From Liolophura sinensis (lineage: Eukaryota; Mollusca; Polyplacophora; Chitonida; Chitonidae), in the NCBI RefSeq assembly GCF_032854445.1, contig NC_088302.1:19151338-19215337 (forward strand): a DNA stretch of 64,000 nucleotides, written 5' to 3'. Positions 16,733 to 51,550 of this stretch are shown here, piece after piece; position 1 is the first letter of the stretch, and every line of letters begins with the position of its first letter. A program made the translations under genes and the position numbers. The notes beneath the pieces are model-generated. The model was given only the letters and a program-made list of their open reading frames with translations. It was not told the origin of the DNA and ran no database searches.

Positions 16733-16836
16733 TCATAATGAAGGACAAAGCACATGGTTAAAGATGAAGTCCACCGTCTCGAATATCGTCAGGATACATA
16801 TCCCCGTGTACAGGGCCAGCGTTCCTCCAATGTCAC
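16733..16836 (-). CDS. DEG/ENaC channel, last exon: pore, TM2, C-tail
   Basis: Acceptor ttttcgctgcag. The exon completes a Cys codon from the previous exon and encodes 'DIGGTLALYTGICILTIFE', the family's D-(I/V)-G-G ... G-x-S ... (L/F)-E signature of the second transmembrane helix, then a short cytosolic tail and TGA at 16733-16735. The selectivity-filter position reads Gly-Ile-Cys instead of Gly-x-Ser. The tail is only about 12 residues after the helix, much shorter than in ASIC or ENaC, with no PY motif. Confidence 0.9.
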
Positions 16837-17487: not shown

Positions 17488-18690
17488 ATTGAATTCTAGG
17501 CCATTAAATAAAGTGATGACATCACAGCATTTTCAGGAATTATAGGCCATTATACCATGTGATGACATGGCAGCATTTTCAGGAATTATTGGGCCATTAT
17601 ATCATGTGATAACATCGCAGCATTTTCAGGAATTATAGGCCATTATACCATGTGATGACATCGCAGCATTTTCAGGAATTATAGGCCATTATACCATGTG
17701 ATGACATCGCAGCATTTTCAGGAATTATAGGCCATTATACCATGTGATGACATGGCAGTATTTTCAGGAATTATTGGCCATTATACCATGTGATGACATC
17801 GCAGCATTTTCAGGAATTATAGGCCATTATACTGACATGGCAGCATTTTCAGGAATTATTAGGCCATTATATCATGTGATAACATCGCAGCATTTTCAGG
17901 AATTATAGGCCATTATACCATGTGATGACATCGCAGCATTTTCAGGAATTATTGGCCATTATACCATGTGATGACATCGCAGCATTTTCAGGAATTATAG
18001 GCCATTATACCATGTGATGACATCGCAGCATTTTCAGGAATTATTGGCCATTATACCATGTGATGACATGGCAGCATTTTCAGGAATTATAGGCCATTAT
18101 ACCATGTGATGACATGGCAGTATTTTCAGGAATTATAGGCCATTATACCATGTGATGACATGGCAGCATTTTCAGGAATTATAGGCCATTATACCATGTG
18201 ATGACATGGCAGTATTTTCAGGAATTATAGGCCATTATACCATGTGATGACATCGCAGCATTTTCAGGAATTATAGGCCATTATACCATGTGATGACATC
18301 GCAGCATTTTCAGGAATTATAGGCCATTATACCATGTGATGACATGGCAGTATTTTCAGGAATTATTGGCCATTATACCATGTGATGACATCGCAGCATT
18401 TTCAGGAATTATAGGCCATTATACTGACATGGCAGCATTTTCAGGAATTATTAGGCCATTATATCATGTGATAACATCGCAGCATTTTCAGGAATTATAG
18501 GCCATTATACCATGTGATGACATCGCAGCATTTTTCAGGAATTATTGGCCATTATACCATGTGATGACATCGCAGCATTTTCAGGAATTATAGGCCATTA
18601 TACCATGTGATGACATCGCAGCATTTTCAGGAATTATTGGCCATTATACCATGTGATGACATGGCAGCATTTTCAGGAATTATAGGCCAT
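17488..18690 (+). repeat. 46-bp minisatellite with higher-order structure
   Basis: About 26 head-to-tail units of a 46-base monomer that includes 'aggccattataccatgtgat' and 'gacatcgcagcattttcagg'. The units differ mainly at a few diagnostic sites: 'catcgcag' or 'catggcag', 'gcatttt' or 'gtatttt', 'attatagg' or 'attattgg'. A rare short unit ('attatactgacatgg') followed by a variant unit ('atatcatgtgataacatcgc') occurs at 17831 and again at 18423, exactly 592 bases apart, and neighbouring variants follow the same order. So a block of about 13 monomers has been duplicated as a unit. The array lies wholly inside an intron of the channel gene. Confidence 0.95.
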
Positions 18691-18779
18691 TCACGTCTAA
18701 TAAATTTTTATTAATACTGTTGCATTCTTCTTACTTATTGTTGCTTAATCCGTGATGCTATAGAGGATGTATAATTTGC

Positions 18780-19304: not shown

Positions 19305-19396
19305 AAGTGAGATCAAAGAAACTATAAGATTGGTGTTGGGTGATTTTTGTCTCGCTCAGCTCTGTGAAATATACTTCAAGGTGAAGGTAGTTATTT
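19305..19396 (-). CDS. DEG/ENaC channel, pre-TM2 exon
   Basis: Acceptor 'gttattttcag', donor 'CACTT|gtaagt'. Entry phase 2 and exit phase 1 match the neighbours. It encodes 'NNYLHLEVYFTEL' and 'QHQSYSFFDL', corresponding to the family's L-x-V-(F/Y)-F-x-x-L ... Q-x-x-x-Y-x-x-x-x-L-L strand that leads from the palm into TM2. It is 92 bases long, a usual length for this part. Confidence 0.88.
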
Positions 19397-19615: not shown

Positions 19616-19872
19616 ACATAGAAATTTTCGTCCAGTTTATTTCCCTTTAAATATTCTTTAAGATCATTTTGGTAGTCCGTAACGTTGGAGACGATTCCCT
19701 CCAGGCAATCCTTGATAGTTCCCGCCTCCCGTTGAAGATTAGGGAAGTCCAGCCATTCAAGGTCGAAGTCTACGTCCTTGGTACCGTTCTCCACCGGATA
19801 GATAACATTCCTGACCGATATGCCCGCCGCTAGGAGGCTGTCAAATCGGGACGTAAGATGGCGGAACGACGT
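19616..19872 (-). CDS. DEG/ENaC channel, C-terminal part of the helical insert
   Basis: Acceptor 'ctttgttttcag', donor 'TATGT|gtaaga', entry phase 0 and exit phase 2. It encodes about 85 residues rich in Asp, Glu, Leu and Asn, with N-glycosylation sequons 'ENGT' and 'SNVT'. It shows no similarity to the usual DEG/ENaC core and belongs to the large inserted region; it leads straight into the pre-TM2 exon. The reading frame is intact. Confidence 0.82.
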
Positions 19873-19941
19873 CTGAAAACAAAGAAATGCAACAGTGTAA
19901 GTTATAGTATAGATCTTTAGTATAATTGTGTTAATTTATTG

Positions 19942-20174
19942 TTTTATTTGATTGGTGCTTTGAGTAGTCTACTCAAGAATATTTCACCTATTTGACGACC
20001 TGCATTATGGTGGAGGGAAACCAGGCAGAGCCCGAGGGAAACCTACGGCCATCAACAGGTTGTGGTAAGACCTTCCCACTTACAACTGGAGAGGAAACCA
20101 GCATGAGCTGGCGAGAGGCTCTAGAGTGATTGCCCCGCGCTGGCACGTTATAACAACACGGCCAAGGAGTACTC
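19942..20174 (-). mobile_element. tRNA-derived SINE, nearly full length
   Basis: From the left: 'ttttatttgattggtgcttt' (tail side), 'ctcaagaatatttcaccta', 'gcattatggtggagggaaac', 'ccagcatgagctgg', 'gattgccccgcgctggcacg' and 'cacggccaaggagt' (tRNA-like head at the right). The head at the right means the element reads on the minus strand. It lies in an intron of the channel gene. The B-box segment present in the 62758-63012 copy is deleted here. Confidence 0.75.
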
Positions 20175-20749
20175 CCCCTCCCCATCCGTGCATTTATGTT
20201 AATTCACCTAAAGGTAGAATAAAGCAAGATTATAGGTGTAGGTCATTTCATGATTCACCCTAGTGATAAATTCATTTTTACCATTACATATTGGTCTATA
20301 ACGTTTACGTTATGCATAATTATTACCCGGCGGAACAAAAGAATAATACAAATTGAACTTTGTGTTTGAATTGCACCAAGGCCAAGGAACGCATGCATAG
20401 GGCTGGGAGTATGGGACGGGACGGAGAAGGAAGAAGTGGTTCATCTTATTAAATAAAGCAAGACCAAGTAGACCAGTAGAATGCACTGAGCTGGTTTAGA
20501 ACCTTCCTGTTGCAAACGAGTCTAATTGGAGTATGTAAAAACACCCATATTTTCTCATGTCACTTTTTTATACAGTTCGTTCGTTAGAGTAAATTGCAGA
20601 TTTAGAGAAGGTACAAACTAAAGAAGGTAGGTGTTTGAATGTAGAACAAACATAAATTGCCAGGTGGGAATAATTCTGACTTAAGTCCCTAAATACAAGT
20701 GAAAGCAGAAGCCATCCGATGTCAGTTGCTTCACAAAGGGGATGATGAA

Positions 20750-21030
20750 TATAATTAAGATATACAGCATAGGAAGATAAACCAGAGCAATGACGACAGT
20801 GTGATAGCTGACAAATGGTAACGCACGTAACCGGTGAAATACGGCCTCTTGCCAATTTCCCTCAGTTACAGTTTTATTCTAACTGTTCATGTAAATGCAT
20901 AAAAAAACAGCAAATTGCGCGCCCTCTAGCAGCATGGCTTAAACAGAATTAGGTAAAGCTGATGTTAATTGCAATTTATTAGACGTCACTGGTCTAGATT
21001 TACTCAATGTCATCGCATTTAACTTACATA
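20750..21030 (-). repeat. Dispersed repeat family, longest intronic copy
   Basis: Reverse copy with both parts: 'gacgacagtgtgatagctga', 'gaaatacggcctcttgccaa', then 'gccctctagcagcatggctt' and 'tttattagacgtcactgg'. It pairs with 3345-3610 over most of its length, so it helps define the element's extent. Confidence 0.65.
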
Positions 21031-21243
21031 AATTAACAACATAATAATCGCCTACTTACAATAACATAATAGTCCCCCGCGAGAAGTTTTGAGATTAAAC
21101 TGAATTGCCTTATAAAGACAAGATCCAGGCTGACAGAAGACACCAAATTACAATGCCATCTCAAATGAATAACTGATATTAATTAACAACTTCTGAAAAA
21201 TAAAGACACTCATATTAGCCTACCACGTGCGTCATGCACCTAC

Positions 21244-22413
21244 CCGCAGTTTTTCTAAAGACGAACGGATGGCATTGCTGTCAAATATGGAGGCCATGTC
21301 GGTTTTATCTATCTCTTCCTCTTTATACTGCTTGGCGATGGCAGATAGTTTCCCCTTCAAGGTTCGAGTGACGTCTGTAAGGTCTGATAACGTGGACTTT
21401 ATAGCCGATAAGTATCTGTCAATGTTCGAGATGTTAGCTGGGAAAGTCCGGCCAATGATGACCAAATTCGTAGCCAGTCCGATGATAGCCGACTGGTCTT
21501 TGCTATACTGATCCTTCAGCTTCTCTATATGTAGATCTAACAATGGCACCGTCAGGTATCCTATTTTTTGCAGCGTCTGTAGAAATTCGTTAATGGCGTC
21601 TTCCACAAGACCGTCCGAGCGACGGTTATTGGTGGTCTCTTCCCGGACTTTGTCGTACTCCTGTGTCAGGGACCGTAGCAAATCTTGCGTGCTGTTCAGG
21701 ATGGCCAGCGTTGTCTTGTTGTAGAACACCTGATGTTCACGGAACTGTTCGTATTTCTGACCCAGGTCCATCCCTTTGGGACCAGATCCTCCCGGAACTT
21801 CTCCCACACCACGTCTGATTGCTGCCAGCATGGAGTCATGGTAGTAGTATTCTTTATTTGGTTTGATCAAAGGCTCGATTTTCGTCAACAGTTTCCAGGC
21901 TGTTTCGTTTAGTTTCGATATCGGTTTAAGCTTGGCATTTCTGGGCTCCCAATGCCTCTTGGGAGACAGCTCTGAAAATATCCCTGAAATGACCGACGGT
22001 TGACAAGAAACCTATATGAGTAGACTCGTTGATACTTTTTAGATTTTCGCCTATCGTTTTGTTCAGAGATTCCAACGTGATCTTGAGCTTGGACAGACGA
22101 CTGCGATATTCTGCCTCATAACTTTCTATCATGTACGTACAGAGAAGTCGATTTTCAAAAAACTTTCTTCCAGTCCTTTGGAAATATTTTCCAGCATCCC
22201 TGAATCATACGCAAACATTGCTTTGTCCACTCTTTGTTGCTTATCTCTTGCCAATCTTAACCTCTTTGAAAGCTGTTTCTTTTTAGCGAACTGACGCACG
22301 ATTGCTCTCCCCTGCGTAGACAGATGTCGCTGCATGCGATAAAGTGGGCTGGTATTCAACATGGCGACAGTTGACTTGGCAGTCACACTGGCTGTCCGTC
22401 ACGTCCACGTGAC
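21244..22413 (-). CDS. DEG/ENaC channel, large exon with frameshifts
   Basis: Acceptor 'ttcttctctcacag', donor 'CTGCGG|gtaggt'. It opens in phase 1 with 'SQCDCQVNC' and 'YQPTLSHA', the family's C-x-C-x-x-x-C ... Y-x-x-x-x-S block, then runs into about 360 residues of helix-prone, charged sequence with many N-x-S/T sequons ('ENIS', 'LNKT', 'YNKT', 'LNST', 'ANIS'). The reading frame breaks three times: between about 22340 and 22285, near 22160-22131, and near 21950. Each break lies at or near a homopolymer (C4 at 22309-22312, A6 at 22157-22162, C3 at 21948-21950 on the plus strand), and one base at each would resolve it. The exon is net one base too long for its flanking phases. Either homopolymer miscalls or a damaged allele would explain this; all other exons are intact. 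Confidence 0.82.
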
Positions 22414-24757: not shown

Positions 24758-24953
24758 ATCCAAGTGGAGCATCTGGATAAACTACAATAGTCAGAGCTTT
24801 ATGGTCACGACCAGGAACACCTTTGATCACTTCGCCAGGAAGGGCATCATTAGTAATAACTAAAATATAATAATGTATTATAAAATATAAAACTATTAAC
24901 GGTACTGTAGGCCTACTTTGATGGTTTGCCCGGCCCTGTGATCTGGCACTCAC

Positions 24954-25065
24954 AATCCCTGCTGATCTTCCTCTGTTCACAGGCTCTGAGACACTTGTCA
25001 CGGGAGTACCTGTTGCCCCGGCCCCCCTCGTCACATCGCCCGTGGGGCAACGGGAGGTTCTCATG
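24954..25065 (-). CDS. DEG/ENaC channel, cysteine-rich thumb exon
   Basis: Acceptor 'cttcttcctgtgcag', phase 0 entry. It encodes 'HENLPLPHGRCDE' and 'NRYSRDKCLRACEQRKIS', which match the family's N-L-P-x-P-x-G-x-C and Y-S-x-x-x-C-x-x-x-C block. The end is ambiguous. The canonical donor 'GATT|gtgagt' ends the exon at 24954 and is phase-correct, but it removes the expected C-x-C ('DCECQI') that follows. A phase-correct GC donor ('CCGG|gcaaac', exon end 24930) would keep it and join as '..GPDPAGEC..'. I list the canonical end. Confidence 0.85.
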
Positions 25066-26261
25066 CTGCACAGGAAGAAAACACAAGTATTAGCAATATT
25101 AAAGCTTAATAATATTGATGTTGATGATGTGTATTGATGGTAACTGCGAAATTTTAAAAAAATTGGAATTCATGTGTAATATTTGGCTGTCAGAAGAGTG
25201 TTCCTTTGGGTTAAGTCTGCTGACATGTTGACGATAGTGCACTGAATTTACTTTCAGTAATGTAACTTAACCCAAAGATCTGTCATACTATCTTCAATCG
25301 GACTACCGTTCATAAATCTCGGAAAAATGCCTGGATAGTTCATATGGAATGTTTACTCCACAAAAATTTTATCTGCTCCAGTTGGAATATAAGCTGATCT
25401 ATGTGTGGATATATATAAACTGAAATAATCGATCGATAGCATTGTATATAAATTATAAACAAACATTCCATTTTCGTTGTCTTTGACAAATTTTCAGAAA
25501 AATTCTTGAAAATATCCTTAAATAAAAGATACAATAACAAGACAGGAGGTAATTTCGCGATCATAATTGTAAGAAACAACGCTATAATGAAGTCAATCCA
25601 GCTTGGTCCCGAGTCGCCATTGCGTGCGAAAAGGCACCCCAGGACACGAAGGAAAACCAACACTTGTAGAAAAGTAGAAAACTAGACTAGAATTAAGAAT
25701 TCAGACATTCTGTTTAACAGCATTCGTGATAAATTATAAAGAGGCCACAGAAAAGAGGCCGTAAAAAACGTCGGGATATCGGTTTTAATAGTTTTATCTG
25801 TTGAATGAAATCGAGCCCAGTGAGCTTGTAATCATTTCTATGTTCACAACAAGCCGACAAGCTTACGCACACGGGCATTTTGTTGGTAATAAACTCCAAC
25901 CATTGTTATCTGGACAGATCAACGTTAAAAGGGTTATCGATTAGGGAGAAATCGATTTGTATCTATGAGGGCATCTTAAACACTCCTGGCCGAGGTCTAT
26001 TCCACTTGTGCGCCGATGTTGTCATAATGCTTCATGTTCGATCAGGAAGCCTTAAAGAGTTAAGAGGCCGGTTCTATAAGGGGTGTTGATATAGTGCAAC
26101 GTCACCATTGCCAAGTCGATCAACGCTTGTCTCTCGGCTTGTTCAGATGCTTTATTCTGGCAGGTTTTCAACGAGGAGAAACCGCCATCGAGAAGACGTG
26201 CTGAATGTTTTATAGCATCCTATCGACGAACTCTATTCAGGCTTTTCATGAGGCTACCCAC

Positions 26262-26443
26262 CACTATTTTCTTAAGGCCCACAGAGGTGTGCGTTCCCAC
26301 CGCAGCATTGATCCCCTGCTCGTTCAGCCAAGGCGTTGTCACATTGTCGTGTATGGTGAATTTTATTCCTACAGCAGACTTGGAATCGGTCATGTATTCG
26401 TACTGCTCAGCGTTCAGGATGAGAAATAACCCGGACATGGGAC
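26262..26443 (-). CDS. DEG/ENaC channel, palm/beta-ball exon
   Basis: Acceptor 'gttttacttccag', donor 'ATAGTG|gtgggt', phases 1 and 0. It encodes 'GPMSGLFLILNAEQYEYM', then 'GIKFTIHD' and 'AVGTHTSVGLKKIV', the clearest family signatures in the gene: G-L-x-L-x-L-N-x-x-Q-x-(E/D)-Y, then G-x-x-x-x-(I/L)-H, then P/A-G-x-x-x-x-V-x-(L/I). Length and order are normal. A + strand open frame over the same bases is a shadow. Confidence 0.93.
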
Positions 26444-27141
26444 CTGGAAGTAAAACAAACACACATTAAAGAAGGCATGAAACGCTCGAGTATTTTTTCC
26501 AAATACAAAGTATCTGAGTGGCTTAACACATAAAATTACAAAACAGCTTATCAGCTTGGTGGGTCAAAATGGCTTTAAACTAATGACAGTTTTCTTCACG
26601 CCCCAGCGGTCTGTTCAGAAATTAAGCAGTCTGTTGTAATGACATCAACATTGATAGCTGCCAAAACAACTTTTCAGCGAGGTGGGATGGGCTGGGGGAG
26701 AGAATCCGAATTGGGGAACCAAGGATGATCTCGCGTTCCAAGTATGACGCCATTTCCGACTACTTAGGAAAAATGTGCATGAAATACAGCCGTTATTAAG
26801 AAATCTAAAATATGCCTCAAAAATACATTTTTCCTTTCTCATTTTCTGGCATTTTTTTCTTCATGTTCCTTAAAACCATACTATTCTTTTCATAGAACGT
26901 ATATTTTCATGTAATATTTAATGAAAGAATTTAATGCCTCATTAAACGGATTAAAAGTTATACTTCTGAAATCATCACAAGGGAATGCATATTAATACGG
27001 ATTCAATTTTCGACAGTGAAATAACTACCTTGAAACCAGTGAAAATACTGTCTCGAGCGAGACTCGAACTCGTGACTCGTCCCTCGAGTCTAATTAGGGG
27101 CAGTATTATCGCTAATCTAGATGTAGCTGTTCTAGTGTCGG

Positions 27142-31040: not shown

Positions 31041-33034
31041 AGTTTGGCTTACAGTTTAATCTACCCGAAACCAGGACTTAACTCGGCCGTTCTGCTGCCA
31101 AAAGACTTAACAGACATTTGCAATGACTCAGCATTAGCCTATCGGATTGAAACGTCTAATTAAGCCTCCCCCACCCTCATGAAACCCATAGTTGTTATTT
31201 GGCTCAGACTATACGGATGGGTAGTTTTATATGAAGGGCCTCGGGTAATGAGGAATTATCCATGGACAAGACCCTGTTCGGGAACGCAATGAATCAATAT
31301 AGAGGCCAGTGTTTAAAAACAACGATTAAAACAACTAAGCAATTTTTTTTCTTGAAAAGGGCCAATTGGGTGAAGATGGAGTTGGACAGTGAACGATACC
31401 GTTGACGAATGGGTTGGTTTCATGAGGGCTGGGCGGTCAAACAGAGGCTGCAACTGGGCTAAAACCGGCATTCAACGCTAGTTAGCGTCGCCGGTGAAAA
31501 AAAGGCGAAACTAATTAGAAAAGACATGTAACTTTTTCTCAGGAGAATGACAGACAATGGGTAATGTATCTTCTTTATAGTACTATAATTCAACTACTGA
31601 GTATCATACCAGTAAGCCATCAATGATTACAGTACATCAGATTTATTTCCTTTTTCCCGTTTTTAAATTCTAGAATTATTTCTAAATGCAGATTCCAACG
31701 ATATACGGTCGTTGCATAATTATCACATTGCTTAACAGATAAGGACAAAGAGAGGCTCGGTCTCCAAGAGATGCGAGTAGAAAGACTTCACTAAGCAGGT
31801 AATCATGAAGATGAGTACAGCGATAAATAACCAATGAAGATTCTGTAGAAAGTGGATACCGTTTGGCGCAGTAACACATTACTTCCGCTAAGTGGACTCC
31901 AAACATCTCCATTATCCGCTAAAAGACACACGTCGCCGCCTTCTGACCAATCAGACATCTGTTTACACCCAAGGGTCACGTAAGCACAAGGAAGCCCATA
32001 CTAAAGTACGAGTCATATCGCAGTCAGTAATGTACAAAGCACCAGTCAGTACATCGTGGCAGACCAACATGGCGCACCGCAGCAAATCATTTGTGGGTCC
32101 TACCCATTTTCCAGTGCCGGTTCCGCACTTTTGTTAACACATGGATTCACAACAAAGGAACACCAGTCAGGACTCTAACATATGCAGTTAGAGGTTATTT
32201 GCCTTTAAGTTGTTCTGTAAGGTGGAAACTTCAAATTCTGTCATGGGTTTTTCGCTCAAATTTTGAACAATACCAAGGACACTAGTTTGAATTATTTTGA
32301 AGAAAAACGTGGTACTGAAATATTTATATGACACCGGTTTTGACAGCAGTTGTAACGCCATGTACGTCTGTAGTATTCTCTCTGGAGTTGTTGCATGTCA
32401 CATACAATGTTTTATTAATTGCGATCAACTGAGACTGACCTGTTGGCCAGGAATTCATCAATGACAATAGGATGCATCAATCTGCCCTCAGTCCAATCTT
32501 TGGGCATTTAAAAACTTGACGAATGAAGTTCCACTGAAGATGGTCAGTAAATATAGTGCAGTTATCGTTTTAATTTTAATCAATAAAAAGCCGTGCAAAC
32601 GGTAAGACATAATAAAGTATAGCATGTTAAGACGGTCACGTAGCTGAATTTGCTTATATCATTCATTCTTTTTCTTAACATTACGCTTGTAGATATTCTG
32701 ATTTGTTGGCCTTTAAGCTATTTATTTGACTTAACACATATCTTACAATAAAACTAGAATAAACAGCTTTATTATTCGATGTGCATGCCGTTATCAGGGC
32801 AAAAAACGACCTATAAATATCGAAAAGATGTGAGTAAGTTTGTGTTCAATTGAAACTAATTTGAAGAACGATGTTGAACGTAACACGAAAGACTGCATTA
32901 TTGTGTCCTCGGAAAAGCCTACCCTCTAAGTGTTGACAAGGTTCCAACATCTGTGTCGCTGTCAATCTTTGTTAGCCTAGTATGCTAAATTTAAAACAAA
33001 ATTGTTTTATCATGACTTTTGCGATAATTCTTAC

Positions 33035-33150
33035 CTGCTCTGGTAATCCATCTTCTGTCCAGATTAGGCATAAATTTATAACACATGCCGTGATCCGTGA
33101 ACACCGCGGTGAAATTCTCAGGCCCACACGGCTCGTTATTCCAAACACAC
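33035..33150 (-). CDS. DEG/ENaC channel, finger-domain exon
   Basis: Acceptor 'ctttgcttattcgcag', donor 'GAGCAG|gtaaga', phases 2 and 1. It encodes 'CVWNNEPCGPENFTAVFT' and 'GMCYKF', the family's C-x-W-x-x-x-x-C-x-x-x-x-F ... G-x-C-(Y/F)-x-F block at the start of the extracellular domain. A + strand open frame of 121 codons overlapping it is a shadow. Confidence 0.93.
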
Positions 33151-33829
33151 CTGCGAATAAGCAAAGAACAGGAGGCGTCATTATCCAAAATAATATTGAA
33201 AAATATATTCCTTTGGGATTATTCGCGACCATTGGCACTGTTAAGGAAGAAGAGAATATCGCTAAGACAAAGCTGAACATTTGTGTTAAAAAAAAAAACA
33301 CATTTCTGATTTACACTTATATCAAAATATCAATCTCCATTATTTAGCCCTAAATGTCATTTCTTTAGGCTTTGCTGAAGTAAGAAGACATTTTTTCCGA
33401 ACTCAAACAGAGTGTTATTCAGAAAAAGAATGTACCAGTGTATTCGAGTTGATTAGGTTAAATTATGTTTTAATCAGCTTTTAAAATCATAATTTACAAC
33501 CAAAGCATATTTGAGTTCACTGTTGCCCATTTGACCTATTTCTCTTTCATTTCTGATCTTCCTATTTTAGAGTCAATAATGCAGACGTACGTTACACTTC
33601 ATTTCGTTTTTTTTATTTTTACATTAAATTATTTTTTGTTGTGATATATTTATTGATTTATTATTTTTTGTACTTTATTGTTTAGACTGATTTGGCTGGG
33701 CATTGATATGGTATTAAAACAGCATAATACTATTTCAAAAATAAGAAGGTAGAAGGATTAATGGAAGAAGGAGACAGAGGAAACTCGGAGGAAACCACAG
33801 TAACAGATATTGGAAAAAATGGACATTAC

Positions 33830-48200: not shown

Positions 48201-50088
48201 CATTTAGTTAACAAAATGTCTAGAGCCGTACGAGCCATCAGAGTTTCATAGGTTGTCCCGCTTCCAGTGTATTTTAATTATTCTGTTAATTTATAGGTTT
48301 TCCTGCACACTTGTGCGTATATAACACTATTTAATTTAACTCACTTATTTTTCTCTATGATGTTTAGTTAAAAGCCTGAAAAATCCCACACGAAATATAA
48401 CACACGAAACAGAATTATTGTTTGTGTGATGTTTCCTGTGAGTTTCCGCTGAAAATTTCTCGACGTATATTTCATGTCCACCCGGCACCTCAAACCTAAG
48501 TGTTTATCCACTTGCACTTCGCTATGCATCAGTCGTGTAAATTTTTACTTGATTTGACGTTTCATTTACTTTCATTTGACGTTGCTATGTGAAGACGGGA
48601 ATGTGTTTCACTCATCCTTAACATGCAAACCTTTTCTGCCAACTCCGTATCAGGTACACTAATAGCCTCGAGCAGCGCCGCCTGGCGACAGATAGGATGG
48701 CTTACCCGCAGTTCTAATCCATTACAGTCTATTGAAGAAGATATGGCCTTCGGGACCTATCCGCTTGCAACACTGCATTCCGAAGATCAAACAAAGCAGA
48801 GAAATCAAGCAGACATTGTCTGTGATCCATAAGCCGGAGTTGAAGTCCGGGAAAGGTGGACGTATTGCTGTATTTTATGCATATCCATCCATAACGCCAA
48901 GTGTAAATCTGCCTACCCAATCGGGTGAAGGGGAAGGCGGAGGATGGTCGAGTTTTCTGTCACAGCTTTTCGGAGACCACTGGGTGGTTTAAGACTCATT
49001 GTCCTTGACTAAACAAAGCACAATTTCGCTTTAAAAGCTTCTTTTTTTCTGGTCATAAACTCCAGCATTGTTGCCAGTCAAATAATGGTACCATCGACAA
49101 GACATCATTGAACACCAACGCAGACAGGATCATATAAGTGTATACAAAAATGCATACAAAGGCCTATTAATTACATTGTTTAGGTGAACTATTTTTTGTT
49201 TTGTCTCCAGTTCATTTTGATTCGTAAGTATATATCCCCTGAATAGGTTACTCGTTGATTATGGCGAAATTGTCATTCTTGGAACACAAGCCTTCGTTCA
49301 GTTGTTCTGAACATCTGCCTGAGTATTAACTACCGGTGAACGTCGACAACAGAGTGTGCCAGATAACACCGAGCTCACGTATTATGTACTTTATCCTTGT
49401 AAAGCCAAACTAGACGGTCACAATAGCACCCTAAATACAACAAGTACATCCGTACAACTTTTCCCGACTCTAAAACTGTTGGTTTTATCTCATCGTCCGA
49501 AGATGTTCGACATTCACGCTGGTTTGGTGTTTCACCCTGAGTGTGCTTTGGACTTCACTTGACACCAGTGCAGGTGTGAGTTGGCTGCCAAGAACTGGTT
49601 TTGAATTGCGCTAACCGGTCGTGGATCAAAATAAATCACCTGACAACGACTGATCCGCGGCAGTGGACCGCTGGTAAACGTAACATACGCCAGGGCGACG
49701 ACAGTCGCTAGCTCACGGCCCATATTGATTACCCTTTTAATTATACAAATCAGAGCGACCAGACGTTTCTTGGCGCTGGGAGAAAACCTGCTTCTATGAT
49801 ACAGCCCTAAAAAAAGCCATATGTGGGCAGGGAACCTCTTCATCAGGTGATGGTAAGGTGGCAGCTGCTGCTTGTACTCACAACCCACTCCTCAGTAAAA
49901 GAAAATTTATATATTTACTGTTGAAATGTGCATGGAATTCACAAGTGAGCCCGTTGTCAACATTTTTTATGGGACCGTGCGTTTGTTTTTATAAAATATG
50001 CTGGTAATCTGAGGCGGGATTAAAACTTACGGATGCATAGGGGTGCGGACGGGTGTTAATTTAAGGGGTGGGTAGGTGTTTTTCTTAC

Positions 50089-50256
50089 CTGTATTTATTT
50101 TCATTGCATATGGTGACAGCAGGAAAAGTAAGAGCATCCATATACTCCACATCTATGTTAACGTTGCTAGGATACCGCGTGTAAATCAGTACTCGGTCTC
50201 TAATCTGATAGCCCGTGGCGGCTAGTGCGCATGCGAATAGAAACAGCCACACGCAT
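50089..50256 (-). CDS. DEG/ENaC channel, TM1 exon
   Basis: Acceptor 'cattcttttatttgcag', donor 'TACAG|gtaaga', phase 2 on both sides. It encodes a hydrophobic helix ('CVWLFLFACALAATGY', TM1), then 'YPSNVNIDV' and the hallmark 'FPAVTICNENKYR', which matches the family consensus F-P-A-V-T-I-C-N-x-N-x-(F/Y)-R. It is certain to be a DEG/ENaC exon. Confidence 0.95.
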
Positions 50257-51550
50257 CTGCAAATAAAAGAATGAAAACAACACAATCAGATCAATTAATT
50301 CCGTTATCACATGCGGTTGAGCTTTCTCTACAAAAAAGATTGCTCAGCATACGACTCAAAGCAAAGTATATTAACTGTTCACAAACCGCTACGCTTTAAA
50401 TGAAATTTAAAGATGTGCAATAGGTTTCCCCATCATTTCTGTTGTGAGAAGAAAAAAATCAACGGACTAAAAAGTGTAGAAATACCCAGAGAATGGAAAA
50501 TCAGAAGTCACATTACTGGGATAAAGATCTTACTGGAATGTAATTAACTATTCATTAAAGCTGTATTGTTTGGAGAAGAAAAAACGGAGACATTAGGAAT
50601 AAATAATGTCAAGTAATAGGTGCTGTATATTGAACCTGTAAAGGTCTGTCATGTTGGAACTCCGTCCTAAAATTAGAGCAGCCACGCCCTCCAACCTCTA
50701 TAATATACTATTAAGTGATTATATTGCAGTTTGTGTTGACATCTCCCGAGAACACGATATCGTGAATATGTAAGGGATACTTTTTGACTGTTCACAACGT
50801 GTTGTGATAATCCCCAAAACACACCAATAACCAGCAGGTTTTTTGTACGGTATGTACGTGAATAAGGTTGGGAAACATTTCGTAATTTACATTTTTGTTA
50901 ATCAGTCTCATTTCACCTGAATGATTAGATCTCAGTGTTATACATAATTCATTCAGTGTTATTTAATACTCCATATTAAGCATTGACAGCTTTGGTTGAC
51001 ACACTGCGGTCATTTTTATGGCTGGAAGAGGTCGAAGTATCCAAGACAACTCAAGAACAGTAGACCTTGTGTATTAGTTTTGAGGCTGATGTTCGTTTAA
51101 AATGTTTCCATTGTCATCATTTGGAGATTAGCGTCTTATAAATTTGGCTCTGCATCAAATGCCCTGACCCAACTCGGTGCTACACGTGTTTTGGTTAGTG
51201 TAAGGCGAGGTGTTGTTGAGCATTTTAGATGGAAACGGCTTGAAGCTGGCGTAATGCACAGGACCAGTAGTCTCACAAATGAACGATTGGGCCTCTGTCA
51301 TGGACGCAGCATTGGAACTGGGAACATTCCTAAGTTGATGCTATCCTTGGATGGAACGCGTGTCACGGTACGAGGCTGTATTAGAACAATATAAACGTGT
51401 TGGGTGTACTTAAAGCGCTTTGGAGTCACTAAACCTCGATATCACAACCGACACGTCTTTCTAGTCCAAACTACACCTGGATACGATTTTTGGGGGTTTT
51501 TGCTCAGGAATATTTCACTTGTGCTGTACATAGCAGTGATCTTAGAGTTG

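Follow-up and report, generated by a model that had tools for sequence, protein, structure and literature searches.

Introduction

Among the trimeric, amiloride-sensitive cation channels of the DEG/ENaC family, beta11 and beta12 are neighboring strands (as in ASIC), the GRIP domain of ENaC is situated in the finger, and a G-x-S motif serves as the filter. The closest solved relatives of the genes described here are the peptide-gated FaNaC (PDB 7yvb, 8on7) and, with palm, thumb, beta12 and second transmembrane segment (TM2) elements in common with them, ASIC and ENaC (PDB 2qts, 9mkz, 6bqn). According to passages of the papers cited here and below, alpha6 of FaNaC lines part of the FMRFamide pocket (PMC11026163, PMC11993918), its residue F453 being at the site in the Aplysia channel (PMC11993918); the corner between finger and knuckle is an uptake site for several kinds of stimuli in DEG/ENaC channels (PMC11026163); the knuckle and the neighboring finger together form the collar, and the part added in ENaC itself is the GRIP domain, not the knuckle (PMC6197857). 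The present analysis concerns a minus-strand DEG/ENaC gene in a 64,000-nucleotide stretch of the chiton Liolophura sinensis (contig NC_088302.1, hereafter C8; C8:19151338-19215337), the whole of which we call the window. With high confidence we regard it as a broken copy from a chiton DEG/ENaC subfamily in which a ~440-residue domain encoded by two exons replaces alpha6 of the knuckle. Our literature searches returned no title or abstract opening describing such an insert, and the passages of PMC9822975 and PMC9234716 make no mention of one.

An insert shared by nine loci of one chromosome

The gene was recognized by three matches above cut-off to the Pfam family ASC (PF00858; profile positions 19-100, 128-195 and 197-267), which cover the first transmembrane segment (TM1), finger and palm, while the cysteine-rich thumb/palm block and TM2 are present by translation (CLRACEQ...CECQ, CDCQVNC and DIGGTLALY...TIFETVDF). 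This bears out an earlier note, made from the letters of the window, which had proposed a minus-strand DEG/ENaC gene with a long insert between the CDCQVNC...YQPTLSHA block and the pre-TM2 strand. Translation places the insert in that very position, after CDCQVNC...YQPTLSHA and before the pre-TM2 strand NNYLHLEVYF, and the boundaries that the note had given for the two insert exons (A and B, Table 1) proved exact, with canonical AG and GT; canonical splice sites also delimit exon C and the acceptor side of exon D.

The genome searched was a single chiton assembly of 609,464,459 bases in 632 contigs, built from 14x HiFi reads and accompanied by five transcriptome samples (according to part of PMC11068029), and in the searches with insert queries only the best candidates were scored. 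The last open piece of the window insert retrieved eight more loci, all on C8, and two intact members of this set (group I), used as queries, gave the same nine loci with no others among the candidates scored. At all nine, the window included, the insert exons lie within DEG/ENaC genes and a match to the TM1 part of ASC is found nearby on the same strand. Exon A occupies the interval between the same channel exons in every one of the eight paralogues and is one open frame of 389-430 amino acids in seven of them; in the remaining one, L004 (C8:19273900-19283800), it comprises two open exons, split by an extra intron with a dispersed repeat. Exon B recurs at this position in seven of the eight and was not found in L005, and exons C and D were found in five (L001, L002, L003, L006 and L007, the stretch of L001 ending within D). 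In the six paralogues where A and B are joinable, the insert measures 445-461 residues if the count begins at the YAAES-like motif that follows beta11.

That the insert exons belong to another gene, or are intronic sequence never joined to the channel, might be suspected from the first insert exon of the window, which is not one open frame. This seems scarcely credible given that the same two exons recur, in the same order and with compatible phases, between the same channel exons of the paralogues, and that four queries (one window piece, two group-I inserts and one group-II insert, see below) matched, among the best candidates scored, only DEG/ENaC loci and a decayed relic. An independent gene or an intronic open reading frame was rejected because of this recurrence. 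The proposal that the insert is joined to the channel exons and is not a one-off is supported: counting the window, the genome holds 13 loci with a homologous insert and one more with a different insert.

Single-exon inserts and the extent of the family

Also examined were six further multi-exon DEG/ENaC loci and one stretch upstream of the L004 gene. Four of these six loci, namely L009, L011, L013 and L014 (group II; two on C9, the others on C11 and C5), carry an insert at the same site but within one exon, and each has a same-strand match to the TM1 part of ASC nearby. The inserts of L009, L011 and L013 comprise 476, 472 and 477 residues; that of L014 contributes 301 residues in the stretch fetched, the full match running to ~473 residues without a stop. 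TM2 exons could be read downstream at five of the eight group-I paralogues and three of the four group-II loci. After removal of the channel part, the hhalign comparison of groups I and II scored 34.4, against a mean of 17.6 (standard deviation 2.9, maximum 26.2) in 200 heptad-block shuffles, a maximum of 26.0 in 200 column shuffles and 24.3 for the reversed profile. A score that stands out in this way against the shuffles suggests that the two types of insert are distantly homologous. On C11, an open frame ~3 kilobases upstream of the group-II exon that carries the insert (L014:5623-6123) resembles a reverse transcriptase by eye.

In another DEG/ENaC gene (L012:3274-4011) this site carries an insert of 246 residues, for which homology to those of groups I and II was rejected (hhalign E-values 0.27 and 0.39). 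It is perhaps a second, independent knuckle insert; no TM2 was found in the fetched stretch of this gene. At L010, none of the five frames of at least 110 amino acids appeared insert-like by eye. The genome yields at least 76 ASC rows, 41 of the 76 starting at profile position 40 or earlier; 14 of these 41 belong to the loci described here, and part of the remaining 27 were checked for inserts. A tree of 58 residues around TM1, limited to this genome and thus without FaNaC of other species, splits groups I and II from six controls and group III with a support of 0.729, and sets the C5 member apart from the other three members of group II.

Comparison with known channels suggests a position at the knuckle

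FaNaC 7yvb was the best solved match both for the palm-thumb part of the L002 gene (E-value 5.6e-14) and for the beta12-TM2 part of the L006 gene (9.1e-7). However, the assignment to a FaNaC grouping suggested by these matches has to be set against the TM1 tree, where the split of the FaNaC-like L020 from groups I and II has a support of only 0.729. From the end of the matched beta11 (chain position 445) to the start of the beta12 match (526), 7yvb has ~80 residues, as compared with ~445-477 in the chiton inserts, while in ASIC5 (9mkz) ~26 residues separate the matched segments (351 to 378, the 351 end coming from a sub-threshold alignment). Within the chiton itself, seven control loci were fetched and the site could be read across in three. 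In two of these, the insert-free channels L024 and L025, the same CxC...C exon runs on, through a phase-2 junction, into the same beta12 exon, and ~18 and ~15 residues, respectively, stand in place of the insert (junctions read from GT/AG sites, without transcripts). The third, the intronless FaNaC-like L020 (C7:59697000-59699300), has ~60-65 residues at the site, counted across a frame change; its coding stretch, in which open frames begin at sense positions 183, 1147 and 1434, represents either a broken copy or assembly errors.

Because the beta11 and beta12 matches flank the insert and F453 of alpha6 falls between them, we infer that the insert replaces alpha6 and would take the knuckle position at the top of the channel, provided that chain and published numbering agree. 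The projection from the palm or wrist suggested in the earlier note is thus most likely wrong. The extracellular location of the insert follows from the topology of the DEG/ENaC family.

The window copy is broken

The ~360 continuous residues that the note had assigned to exon A were not confirmed, and the frame switches do not support a working protein from the window copy. In the window exon A is not a single frame; its homologous pieces sit in the successive open frames 22441-22286 (which holds the CDCQVNC block), 22398-22132, 22204-21929 and 22011-21235, with three frame switches between them. Read straight through, the frame meets a stop shortly past the CDCQVNC block and its product falls short of TM2, so that no continuous frame leads from TM1 to TM2. 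The other exons found in the window are open. Every piece matches the corresponding part of the paralogues, which argues that exon A was once coding and was then either frame-switched three times or mis-assembled. The window copy also departs from its relatives in the TM2 filter, where it has G-I-C in place of the G-A-S or G-I-S found in all eight relatives with TM2 read (L001, L002, L003, L006, L007, L009, L011 and L013; the set does not include L004, L005, L008 and L014). A GIS motif is located in TM2 (part of PMC11026163).

On account of the three frame switches in exon A, we class the window as a broken copy and the paralogues as members of the DEG/ENaC family. The broken copy is probably a pseudogene; a mis-assembled gene is the less likely alternative. 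An intact gene disrupted by assembly errors would be in keeping with the modest HiFi coverage, with the canonical splice sites of exons A, B, C and D, with the last 259 open codons in the frame of exon A, and with the frame changes in the intronless L020. Such an explanation is nevertheless unlikely, since the 12 other copies of the insert (eight in group I, four in group II) have no stop in the matched frame, so that three indels within one copy are not evenly spread, and since the TM2 filter is changed as well. Moreover, a decayed relic of a group-II insert with several stops (C9:10416096-10416517, ~18 kilobases from the intact L013) indicates that such genes do die in this genome.

Properties of the insert

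The insert is predicted to be helical and amphipathic. In group I its hydrophobicity peaks at 100 degrees, i.e. with a period of 3.6 residues, at 3.19 times the mean, compared to a maximum of 1.94 in 300 shuffles. The amphipathic pattern is held in common with generic coiled coils and helical bundles (viral spike HR1, keratin, fibrinogen, laminin, spectrin-like proteins), but the period is unlike the 3.5 of classic coiled coils. The inserts of both groups contain 4-6% proline plus glycine, 26-32% charged residues and 0-2 cysteines each, and their hydropathy over 19 residues never exceeds 1.47, for which reason extra transmembrane segments were rejected. The pieces in the window carry nine N-X-S/T sequons (1+2+4+2), where the note had counted at least eight. 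Sequons exceed the shuffled mean in all ten inserts compared (1.4-3.1 times), with P<0.05 in six; among the six joined group-I inserts one sequon column is kept in all and two others in five. Overall, these data support the note's picture of a large, helix-prone, sequon-rich extracellular insert.

A Pfam scan of 12 inserts (the exon-A parts of seven group-I paralogues, the last window piece and the four group-II inserts, exon B lying outside the scan) brought no model to its cut-off, the nearest being TFCD_C in L008 with 20.6 of 22.4 bits. Profile hits of the insert were weak (TFCD_C 4.4e-4, Spectrin_Anc-1 4.9e-4, Laminin_II 6.1e-4), and those in the PDB, with a best E-value of 5.2e-5 (another search gave one hit, 0.16), scatter over unrelated helical proteins; on these grounds a known domain was rejected. 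Internal duplication was likewise rejected, being suggestive in one group only: the two halves scored 24.7 in group I, where 60 shuffles reached at most 23.0, and 18.0 in group II, where the shuffles reached 20.2.

Candidate roles of the insert

Since beta11 and beta12 neighbor each other, the two ends of the domain would lie almost side by side, pointing to a helical bundle closed in the manner of a hairpin. Three such domains would then sit atop the ectodomain of a trimer, each beside the finger of the neighboring subunit, in the corner where FaNaCs bind FMRFamide. We tentatively propose that the domain may be a module that recognizes, outside the cell, a partner either in solution or bound to a surface; binding of this partner would shift the interface of knuckle and finger and, through it, the thumb and gate. 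This mechanism is decidedly less secure than the identity and placement of the insert, and for the explanation as a whole, a compromise between the two parts, we would put the chances for and against at about equal. In group I the mean pairwise identity of the insert is 26% (15 pairs). It is higher in exon C plus TM2a (59%, 15 pairs) and in the TM1 exon (47%, 36 pairs), the window being included in these last two comparisons. Such turnover, along with the broken copy and the relic, suggests a resemblance to recognition receptors rather than to a fixed structural part; fast divergence, clustering on C8, the broken copy and the relic, all reminiscent of recognition-receptor families, are our reasons for preferring a recognition module to the two other roles considered.

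In one of these the insert would be a mechanical tether: a glycosylated helical tower would fasten the channel to mucus, cuticle or matrix, and shear or pull would reach the gate through it. The enrichment in sequons, three of whose positions are widely kept, speaks for such a role, but the strong divergence between paralogues is unlike a shared anchor and no matrix-binding domain was recognized in the Pfam scans of the inserts. Furthermore, the relevant part of the review PMC9108448 marks direct evidence for the tether model as missing in the case of ENaC and reports that the response was not abolished when the asparagines concerned were removed. We therefore consider a tether unlikely. Somewhat less likely still is a part in assembly or spacing, by which the insert would aid subunit recognition or folding in the secretory pathway without a role in sensing. 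Several diverged paralogues on one chromosome could conceivably form heteromers; on the other hand, ~440 residues are very many for such a task, which two related channels manage with ~15 and ~18.

Several observations weigh against a homologous, helical domain with a role in recognition. The fast divergence would be equally expected of loosely constrained helical spacers, and alpha6 of FaNaC1 is described as relatively static during gating (part of PMC11026163). The probability that hhalign itself assigns to the homology of groups I and II is only ~15%, and the 100-degree peak of group II, at 2.14 times the mean, remains below the highest shuffle (2.22). Finally, AlphaFold2 modeled a 246-residue window piece on its own as nearly all helix, but with a mean predicted local distance difference test (pLDDT) score of 44.3; given this poor prediction, the helical fold rests on sequence statistics.

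Gene structure in the window

The exons of the gene are listed in Table 1. The finger exon is 44% identical to that of paralogue L002 across 43 amino acids, and a search for further finger exons common to L002 and the window gave none. Neither the gene start nor exons between the TM1 and finger exons were found in the window, and Pfam ASC gave no match to the TM2 exon itself. The donor of the thumb exon was taken to be GTAGGC.

Table 1. Exons and open frames of the DEG/ENaC gene (positions in the window)
Feature	Position	Strand	Evidence
TM1 open frame (YQIRDRVLIY...FPAVTICNENKYR)	50088..50285	-	ASC 19-100 at 50025-50267; translation
Finger-exon open frame (CVWNNEPCGPENFTAVFTDHGMCYKF)	32994..33218	-	ASC 128-195 at 33036-33287
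Palm exon (GLFLILNAEQYEY...GTHTSVGLKK)	26250..26443, 3' end approximate	-	ASC 197-267 at 26250-26453; acceptor at 26443
Thumb exon (LPLPHGRC...CLRACEQRKISRDCECQ)	24917..25065	-	Translation; matches to L002 and L003; acceptor seen
Exon A: CDCQVNC block, beta11 (YQPTLSHA), bulk of insert	21244..22413	-	AG before 22413, GT after 21244
Exon B: final ~85 insert residues	19616..19872	-	Canonical splice sites; homologous exon in 7/8 paralogues
Exon C: pre-TM2 strand beta12 (NNYLHLEVYFTELSETKITQHQSYSFFDLTC)	19305..19396	-	Splice sites
Exon D: TM2 and C-terminus (DIGGTLALYTGICILTIFETVDF...), filter G-I-C	16733..16836	-	Translation, acceptor, stop

Two introns of the gene contain repeats. A tandem array of ~26 copies of a 46-base unit (92% matches) extends over positions 17491-18691, inside the intron between exons C and D. 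Positions ~20741-21041, in the intron between A and B, match a dispersed repeat: most of 55 other rows fall there, with ~74-84% identity in the longer matches (best 40 of 7,248 candidates scored). An Rfam scan of the window gave 0 matches.

Implications for the DEG/ENaC family

An insert of ~440 residues is comparable in size to an ordinary DEG/ENaC ectodomain. That a new, all-helical, sequon-rich knuckle domain of ~440-480 residues defines a molluscan DEG/ENaC subfamily, and makes the channel a collar-gated receptor or tether, is a proposal to which we would give a little less than an even chance. The insert is an unstudied part that could serve as a sensor or an anchor, and it is the intact paralogues, not the window copy (probably a pseudogene), that make its role directly testable. 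If true, a knuckle that has become a domain of this size would constitute a natural experiment in adding new gating inputs to a channel.
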